Below, one piece after another: positions 24,201-27,200 of a stretch of 64,000 nucleotides of DNA. How positions within the stretch are numbered: position 1 is the first letter of the stretch; every line of letters starts with the position of its first letter. The notes beneath the pieces were generated by a model. The model was not told the origin of the DNA and searched no databases. It saw only the letters and a program-made list of their open reading frames with translations. This DNA comes from Sipunculus nudus (Eukaryota; Annelida; Sipuncula; Golfingiida; Sipunculidae). The stretch spans positions 13,506,839 to 13,570,838 of the forward strand of contig CM049316.1 of assembly GCA_026874595.1 (NCBI GenBank), in the 5' to 3' direction. The position numbers were made by a program, and so were the translations under genes.

Positions 24201-27200
24201 TGTATTTTTTTATTTATTTTTAAAAATGTAACCATGTGACAATCTTACCAGTAGTATTGTATACTGGTAATGCAGTGGGTAAAGAATGTCTTGTTGAGTG
24301 TAAGAATACTGTGGTAAAGTTATAAGATTGAAATAAAAAATTATAATATTATATATTATGTATTGCAAAAGTTTTCAAACCAGCCTGAACAAAGTTGTTA
24401 TTTTTGCAGGGAAGGTCATATTCTTACGAAAATGTAGACAACAGTGGGCTCAATGCAATTTTGAATAGCAATGACGTCAGTGAATACCTCAAAATAGCCC
24501 CCAGTGGACTGGAGGTAAGTCGTTCTGTCACCAGGTGGCATATTGTGTAGTTGGCTTTAGAGTCACAAGGGTTTCATATTGGCATACTTGTATATGGTTC
24601 TCAGGCACCTTCCTTGTCAATTTTAACCCCCCCCCCCCCCCTGCATAAAAAATGGTAATTTGATTTTCATCTTTCAAGAAGACATAATAATACAATTTTG
24701 ATAAGATTTCCTTTGTTATGTAATGCTTTTACCTGTTTAGCAAAAAAATTCTGTTATTATCATGCTTTTCCTGATCATATGACATTTTTATCGAAACATA
24801 CAGAAAAAAAAGGTTAAAAAAAATTGCCCACCTGCACTGATTTTTGACAAAAAAGTGCCTGAGAACCATACCTTTTTTTTGGCCAAATGAACAGGTGTGT
24901 TGACTTGTGTTGACAGATTACTTGTTTGTGCAATATTGGCATAAGATAGAAAGGGTTAATTATGGTCCACAGATGAGTTGATTGTCAGGATGGACAGACT
25001 TTTGTGATAATTGCAACTTTATGAATAGATTAGGAAATGTTTCTGATTGTATTCATATTTCATAACCACTACTCTGTGTATAGATTTTTAGTGAGATCAT
25101 GAAAAGGAAACCATTACAAAACACCAAAAGGGGGAATGTCACAAATTTTAACCTCTTGACTATGAATCCAGCTACAGTACAGCACAAAAATCAGCAGCAT
25201 AGCATATTAAACACATTACTAAAGCAACAGCTGATAATAACAAAGTGGGATCAGTAAATTGTCACCAGTCAGGAGATACTATGGTCAGTGATGGAGTGTT
25301 ATGTCTGTAAGTGTGAATACAAGGTGTGTTTTTGTGTGTGACTTTTGCAGGTGTATGAATTAGTTAAACCATTCCTCTAGACCCTTAGGTTAAATATATC
25401 TTTACCAGCCACTGTATTATCTCTTGTCCAAACCAGATGTGCATTTATAACTAGAGGTCATGTTGGCCTAAACGCCAATGTGATGTTTATGTTTATAGGT
25501 TTTGAATGTGAGACTTCATCTTAAGTCAAGACAGAAGGAGGGATTTTCAGTCATTGGCCAGTGAAAAGGCTCTCAAATATTGATGAAGGTTAGGGTAATG
25601 GAGGGGTTATGGTGTAGGAGAAACTGTATGAATATTTAGGCAGTAAATTGGTCAATCTCCGGCAGTCTAGTTCTTGTCGCATTTTTCTGCAGTTTTGGCG
25701 CTGTTATTTGGCATTAAGCATGTTGAGTATGCATTGTTATAGTTTTTTATAGATTTTTCTGGTAAAAAAGGATGATGCATGCCCTCTGTGCCCCATAAAT
25801 CTACTCCAAATTTTAGTTCAGTTACAGAAAGCACAGCCTGCATGTGTCAAATCTTGGATGTGTTGCATCCTTGTTCGAGAGTGTGAGTGTACATTTTATA
25901 GACCCATTGTGATGCATCCTCATTTGAGAGTGTGAGGTGTACATTTTACAGGCCCATTGTGATGCATCCTCCGTTAAGAGTGCGTGGTGTACATTTTATA
26001 GGCCCATTGTGATGCATCCTCATTTGAGAGTGTGAGGTGTACATTTTACAGGCCTGTTGTGATGCAACCTTTTTTGAGAGTGTGTGGTGTACATTTTACA
26101 GGCCCGTTGTGATGCTACCTTTTCTTAGAGTGTGCAGTGTACATTTTACAGGCCTGTTGTGATGCATCCTCATTTGAGAGTGTGAGGTGTACATTTTACA
26201 GGCCCATTGTGATGCATTCTCATTTGAGAGTGTGAGGTGTACATTTTACAGGCCAGTTGTGATGCATCCTATTTTGAGAGTGTGAGGTGTACATTTTATA
26301 AGCCCATTGTGATGCATCCTCATTTGAGAGTGTGAGGTGTACATATTACAGGGCTGTTGTGATGCATCCTCCTTTGAGAGTGTGTGGTGTATATTTTATA
26401 GACCCGTTGTGATGCATCCTCATTTGAGAGTGTGAGGTGTACATTTTATAGACCCATTGTGATGCATCCTATTTTGAGAGTGTGAGGTGTACATTTTATA
26501 GACCCATTGTGATGCATCCTATTTTGAGAGTGTGAGGTGTACATTTTATAGACCCATTGTGATGCATCCTATTTTGAGAGTGTGAGGTGTACATTTTATA
26601 AGCCCATTGTGATGCATCCTCATTTGAGAGTGTGAGGTGTACATTTTACAGGGCTGTTGTGATGCATCCTCCTTTGAGAGTGTGTGGTGTATATTTTATA
26701 GACCAGTTGTGATGCATCCTATTTTGAGAGTGTGAGGTGTACATTTTATAAGCCCATTGTGATGCATCCTCATTTGAGAGTGTGGTGTATATTTTATGGA
26801 CCCGTTGTGATGCATCCTCATTTGAGTGTGAGGTGTACATTTTACAGGCCCGTTGTGATGCATCCTCATTTGAGAGTGTGTGGTGTACATTTTATAGGCC
26901 GGTTGTGATGCAACCTTTTTTGAGAATGAGCAGTGTACCTTTTACAGGCTTGTTGTGATGCATCCTCGTTTGAGAGTGTGTGATGTACATTTTACAGGCC
27001 CGTTGTGATGCATCCTCGTTTGAGAGTGTGCGGTGTACATTTCAAGTGGACTCTGATGTCTGGTACTATGAAGTTCACATCATCACTGCTGGGGTCATGC
27101 AGATTGGATTTGCTACACGAGACAGCAAATTTCTCAATTATGTGAGTAATCAATACAGTTTTCAAATCTAAATGATGACTGGAAAGATAACCCTCTTTGT

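Follow-up and report, generated by a model that had tools for sequence, protein, structure and literature searches.

Minisatellites that extend across exon-intron boundaries have been described in amphioxus, where they are called mirages (PMC3087553). Examples are reported from Adh3 (cited there from Canestro et al. 2002) and the globin genes BflGb6 and BflGb9 (PMC3087553), and also from PGBD5 and troponin C (PMC3902484). According to the authors of the globin report, RT-PCR reveals regular splicing at amphioxus mirages that is seemingly undisturbed, one globin haplotype carries 6 repeats and the other 3, and mirages are proposed as a means of intron gain in the globins (PMC3087553). In the literature that we searched, mirage reports concern only a few amphioxus genes, and a search of a limited collection with limited terms returned no report of mirages in molluscs.

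A minisatellite of the 6-16 type at an exon boundary is said, going by its title, to have units that carry splice sites; these are reportedly donor sites provided to the transcript, whereas the array described here multiplies acceptors. Length variation of an intronic VNTR in human ABCA7 correlates with exon skipping, as reported in PMC5954066. Both the ABCA7 repeat and the RSPRY1 array are intronic and lie beside an exon, and it is for ABCA7 that an effect on splicing has been measured. In the polyubiquitin gene UBC, coding monomers form a tandem array of dual-specific splice sites whose use is described as stochastic (PMC10809524). UBC and RSPRY1 thus share a tandem array with a splice site in its units, but the RSPRY1 units shift the reading frame and meet stop codons.

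The RSPRY1 array lies in a window of 64,000 nucleotides, which is the whole stretch of DNA that was analysed. Following the first-pass annotation, we take the gene to be RSPRY1, the exon beside the array to be its exon 9 and the coding sequence to be conserved to human. The relevant features are as follows.

24410..24514, + strand: upstream exon (exon 8 in the numbering of the first-pass annotation), from its open frame and donor, with the acceptor taken from a position model
25853..26997, + strand: intronic part of the array, with 23 copies of a 50-nt unit that joins the exon start to the acceptor, from repeat calling and unit cutting
26984..26992, + strand: upstream arm of a 9-nt direct repeat, TGTACATTT, within the real acceptor
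26996..26997, + strand: acceptor AG that keeps the protein frame and has the highest score in the array (9.8 bits), from the position model and in silico joining
26998..27141, + strand: SPRY-domain exon, of which 26998-27047 is the 24th unit, from its open frame and Pfam
27034..27042, + strand: TGTACATTT in the exon, the other arm of the 9-nt direct repeat

Tandem Repeats Finder reports the array at 25859-27042 with a period of 50, 23.8 copies, 87% matches and a score of 1654. When the repeat is cut at the unit start, 23 intronic units occupy 25853-26997 (50 nt long in 20 cases, 48 nt in two and 49 nt in the first), and the 24th copy is the exon start at 26998. The units run head to tail and in register with the exon, whose start is the last unit. 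Thus, the first-pass description of an acceptor and exon start amplified into 23 intronic copies, with the exon as the final copy, is borne out in both its anatomy and its count. The upstream exon ends in phase 0 with CTG GAG/gtaagt at 24514. The downstream exon comprises 144 nt (48 codons) followed by a gtgagt donor at 27142, and its peptide matches Pfam SPRY with an E value of 0.01 alone and 5.5e-10 when joined to the next exon. The two TGTACATTT arms are 50 nt apart, and the arm in the exon encodes Cys-Thr-Phe. A short direct repeat shared by the acceptor and the exon had been noted previously, and this repeat is indeed present, but it spans nine letters rather than the seven originally given.

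Pairwise differences among the intronic units range from 0 to 15 aligned columns. Three pairs are identical (u04/u16, u11/u17 and u13/u14), and comparison of u09-u11 with u15-u17 yields 3, 1 and 0 differences, which points to the duplication of a block. The most diverged unit is the first, at the 5′ edge. Of the 23 unit ends, 19 retain the AG in position, comprising 18 decoys and the real site, whereas the remaining four of the 22 decoy ends read TATAA/G in three cases, with the AG shifted by one position, and ATGG in the other.

These characteristics are those of an amphioxus mirage. The tandem repeats span an exon-intron boundary, splice signals are present in many but not all units (an AG in 18 of 22 decoys), and concerted turnover is evident from identical and block-duplicated units in the interior together with a diverged 5′ edge. 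By these features, the RSPRY1 array belongs to the same class. A cephalochordate host, which the amphioxus examples bring to mind, is not favoured. For three myosin exons the top PDB match comes from squid or scallop, with a clear margin at L058 (eight such sequences at 85-86 bits, the next at 76), a moderate one at L059 (83.0 versus 76.8) and hardly any at L036, where Myosin-6 entries come within about 1 bit. At 1.43 Gb, the genome also exceeds those of amphioxus in size. The matches point to a mollusc-like host, and the class therefore probably extends beyond cephalochordates. As far as the amphioxus reports describe them, mirages have in common with the RSPRY1 array the tandem boundary copies, many of which carry splice signals, and the authentic exon at the edge. 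Also, both 5′ and 3′ boundaries are involved in amphioxus and in this genome alike. The dimensions differ, in that RSPRY1 carries 23 intronic copies of 50 nt whereas BflGb6 is described with 3-6 copies of 150-160 nt; for Adh3, units of 10-72 nt are stated (PMC3087553). The RSPRY1 array was examined in one haplotype. The first-pass annotation treated the case as singular, a view that does not hold given the amphioxus examples and the occurrence of the same anatomy at other genes of this genome. What is new in the RSPRY1 mirage is its size, its probable host and the company of similar arrays in the same genome.

We consider it likely that the array was born at the exon boundary, is mainly neutral, and is removed by splicing at the exon-proximal site. 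A tandem duplication across the 3′ splice site would have placed an extra exon start and acceptor in the intron. The 9-nt direct repeat may have seeded this first duplication, and it may predate the array because its exon arm encodes part of a segment that the first-pass annotation gives as conserved to human. Further duplication, including that of multi-unit blocks as reflected in the unit relationships, would then have produced the 23 intronic copies. Splicing would most likely proceed at the exon-proximal site at 26998, such that the remainder leaves with the intron. This site might be chosen because it alone is matched to the donor at 27142 by an exon of normal length (144 nt), as expected under exon definition.

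The decay of the intronic copies is consistent with such a history. Counts were made on the 20 of 23 units that align without gaps, using 42 exon-derived columns. At the six columns of the three CpG sites in the exon, 64 of 120 cells differ from the exon, compared to 25 of 720 cells at the other 36 exon-derived columns. The CpG dinucleotide is kept at the three places in only 3, 1 and 0 of the 20 units. This loss looks like the decay of methylated CpG in copies that would be free of coding constraint, where the CpG sites of the exon have mostly been lost and the AG has mostly been kept.

To assess the quality of the decoys, we used an acceptor position model built from 39 of 50 myosin exons of the same genome, with 19 of 20 kinesin exons held out. 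The model is partly circular, as it picks sites by its own score. The held-out kinesin acceptors have a median of 8.7 bits (n=19). The frame-keeping RSPRY1 acceptor scores 9.8 bits, the 18 decoys with an AG in place score 5.5-8.8, and the three shifted AGs score -1.4. The real site therefore tops the array by 1 bit, and none of the 23 other AGs above 2 bits reaches it. Because the frame-keeping site scores best there, its strength could be enough to account for its use among the units of the array. However, AGs upstream of the array at 25351 (10.5 bits) and 25499 (10.1 bits) outscore it, and so score alone cannot explain the choice across the whole intron. In silico joining of exon 8 to the decoys with an AG, 21 in number, produces a premature stop in every case, located about 130 nt or more upstream of the exon end. 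Decoy use would yield a frameshifted RNA that carries this early stop. Earlier proposals that the decoys approach real sites in quality and that extra units shift the frame into a stop are upheld by these results.

Such observations invite a regulatory interpretation, wherein the number and strength of the decoys set the share of RSPRY1 mRNA that contains a stop, and array length tunes expression. The retention of AG in 18 of 22 decoys with scores in the range of real acceptors, the premature stops in all 21 joined products and the correlation between VNTR length and exon skipping reported for ABCA7 (PMC5954066) are all in keeping with a device of this kind. However, the AG is lost or shifted in four of the 22 decoys and so its retention is not strict, published mirages are reported to leave splicing undisturbed (PMC3087553), and kinesin and myosin boundaries share the anatomy, which indicates a general process. 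On balance, regulation by decoys seems unlikely.

Evidence that the same anatomy recurs elsewhere in this genome comes from a survey of exon starts in myosin and kinesin genes, 98 in all (two sets of 90 and 8), for which 110-300 nt of upstream sequence were scanned. An acceptor was assigned at 80 of these (74 of 90 and 6 of 8), and the 18 without an assigned acceptor were dropped before the counts were made. A strong array is present at two of the 80 acceptors, and a single acceptor is the rule among the exons surveyed. Short arrays of about 2 copies (score 49) near the acceptors of loci L088 and L121 were not counted as cases.

One kinesin acceptor (L125, L128) adjoins an array of 31-nt units, each consisting of the acceptor and roughly 15 nt from the start of the exon.

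Contig 12, C12:42582243-42582830, minus strand: kinesin array of at least 18.5 copies, a lower bound that reflects the end of the examined stretch inside the array

A more degenerate example is found at kinesin locus L095 on contig 13, where a ladder of 17-nt acceptor-like units covers most of a 727-nt intron whose upstream exon was read by eye. The position model chose a decoy at this locus, and the frame-keeping acceptor was instead taken from the kinesin peptide. This acceptor matches the ladder unit at 12 of 15 places, suggesting that it might be the last unit of the ladder.

We also searched the flanks of 50 myosin loci, 150 kb in total, for arrays with periods of 10-120 and scores of at least 100. 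Fourteen arrays lie near the 50 exons, and seven of these have an exon boundary in the terminal unit as judged by eye. Pfam supports the exon side in three cases (L044, L055 and L085). The seven are listed below, where the Pfam cut-off is applied to exon pieces that are short in L044 and L055.

L044, acceptor: 82-nt unit, 5.8 copies; Myosin_head match of the exon peptide at 29.3 bits, under the curated cut-off of 33.3
L055, acceptor: 31-nt unit, 9.4 copies; Myosin_head match of the exon peptide at 26.6 bits, under the curated cut-off of 33.3
L085 (contig C5), donor: ~61-nt unit, 3 copies; 54.9 bits
L061 (contig C7), probable donor: 36-nt unit, 27.8 copies; 20.7 bits, with the match stopping 5 residues before the donor
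L072, probable donor: 83-nt unit, 1.9 copies; end of the exon placed by eye
L070 (contig C9), candidate donor: 31-nt unit, 23.5 copies; exon end putative
L060 (contig C9), candidate donor: 21-nt unit, 52.8 copies; putative exon with no match in Pfam or PDB

If arrays were dropped at random, 0.54 or 1.06 would be expected to end in a boundary, depending on the assumed exon density. The chance of observing at least 3, 5 or 7 such arrays is 0.015, 1.2e-4 and 2.7e-7, respectively, at the lower expectation, and 0.082, 2.5e-3 and 2.4e-5 at the higher one. Restricting the count to the three cases with Pfam support leaves a chance of 0.015-0.082. An excess of arrays that end in myosin boundaries is likely, although it leans on the less certain cases. 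Array density alone reveals no enrichment at boundaries, as arrays cover 3.83% of the myosin flanks, which is near the share of central boundaries that fall in arrays. The excess therefore rests on arrays that end exactly in boundaries. Two additional observations were made at myosin loci. A second array with CAGGTAAG units lies farther downstream at L085. Also, four adjoining matches in a myosin gene, all to roughly profile positions 109-153 of the myosin head, are located at C2:44849337-44852248 on the minus strand, and these are possibly mutually exclusive exons.

Site choice differs in character among these arrays. Counting AGs above 2 bits, 14 of 17 decoys at the kinesin array score no lower than the frame-keeping acceptor, as do 4 of 9 at L044 and 1 of 13 at L055. 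On the donor side, the downstream GTs whose consensus matches equal those of the frame-keeping donor number 24 at L061, 27 at L060, 16 at L085 and 1 at L070. If the proteins are made, the choice at the kinesin array and at L061 must depend on position and not on strength, because many decoys there are as good as the frame-keeping sites. Exon definition fits a preference for the exon-proximal site. This mode of recognition is described in PMC10809524.

Given the anatomy seen at kinesin and myosin boundaries and a class already described in amphioxus, a general and largely neutral process is a better explanation than a device peculiar to RSPRY1. The RSPRY1 mirage would then be for the most part a side effect of minisatellites arising at exon boundaries, which recurs at other genes of this genome.

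A different possibility is that the repeated units are helpful without being used as sites, drawing splicing factors to where the 2.5-kb intron ends and aiding exon definition. A second array in RSPRY1, which multiplies a T-rich tract without AG before another acceptor, can be viewed in this light.

22158..22419, + strand: 40-nt T-rich array of 6.6 copies, from Tandem Repeats Finder and the position model

This second array stops 2 nt short of an acceptor AG (22422-22423) whose exon begins at 22424. Its 262 nt contain no AG, compared to an average of 5.0 in shuffled sequences, a comparison in which the repeat units are not independent of one another. However, the copies in the main array decay at CpG sites with no sign of constraint, and surveyed exons as a rule manage with a single acceptor. 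We therefore regard a helpful role for redundancy as quite improbable.

There is a slim chance that the array is absent from the actual genome or is of another length, as tandem arrays are generally prone to length errors in assemblies. Distinct sequences are nevertheless present in 17 of the 20 ungapped full-length intronic units, the units have nested block relationships, and similar arrays are found at several other loci, all of which speak against an artefact of assembly.

That an unrelated dispersed minisatellite landed beside the exon by chance is scarcely credible, despite the abundance of minisatellites in this genome (3.83% of the 150 kb that flank the myosin loci in total), as the unit is the exon start and acceptor in register, and the unit and exon were found nowhere else among the best candidates scored. 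Specifically, a 150-nt query comprising array and exon gave 12 matches in the 1.43-Gb genome and a query with the exon peptide gave 7, all of them inside the RSPRY1 array among the best candidates scored. A dispersed satellite was rejected on this basis.

Returning to arrays born at exon boundaries, the similar examples at other genes suggest that mirages may be common in this genome. We examined this issue by searching for splice-site words that occur three times with gaps of 10-40 nt, using the reversed word for comparison. The acceptor word TTTTCAGG gives 1125 matches versus 179 for its reverse, but there is no excess when matches are merged by eye into loci (11 versus 10, up to contig 4 at 25.66 Mb). 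The donor word CAGGTAAG gives 680 matches versus 178, corresponding to 25 loci versus 4 as far as 88.72 Mb on contig 4. As a single word, CAGGTAAG occurs 15 times in 224,545 bases versus 3 for its reverse, arrays included. The excess of triple CAGGTAAG may simply reflect the abundance of the word. Among the acceptor-word matches is a long array at C1:8484928-8488090 with a unit of ~44 nt and TTTTCAGG in every listed copy, which may be another acceptor array.

A broader and more tentative proposal, which we hold to be possible but somewhat short of an even chance, is that intronic minisatellites are preferentially born at donors and acceptors. A noticeable share of introns would then grow from their ends through amplification of their own splice sites, with the exon-proximal copy being picked from among up to dozens of equals. 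If this is true, boundary-born arrays constitute a natural, large-scale test of exon definition. Arrays in which a dozen or more near-identical sites compete, and only one keeps the frame, are natural experiments on the choices made by the spliceosome. If such arrays are common in the lineage, they would further provide a definite mechanism by which introns lengthen and, following the proposal made for globins in amphioxus (PMC3087553), are gained.

Two other observations were made in the course of the analysis. The window carries three further tandem arrays with units of ~280 nt (689-1466, 5950-6933 and 49068-50179), whose consensus units include GGTGGCGCCACCTGCAACC-like sequence. A COX1 search of the assembly gave 11 matches, with cytochrome oxidase genes on contigs C60, C61, C62, C66, C72, C74, C75, C89 and C123. 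The cytochrome oxidase contigs that were translated (L026, L027, L028, L031 and L034) have a bacterial look by gene content, and C89 carries two copies. These contigs are possibly derived from symbionts or contaminants.
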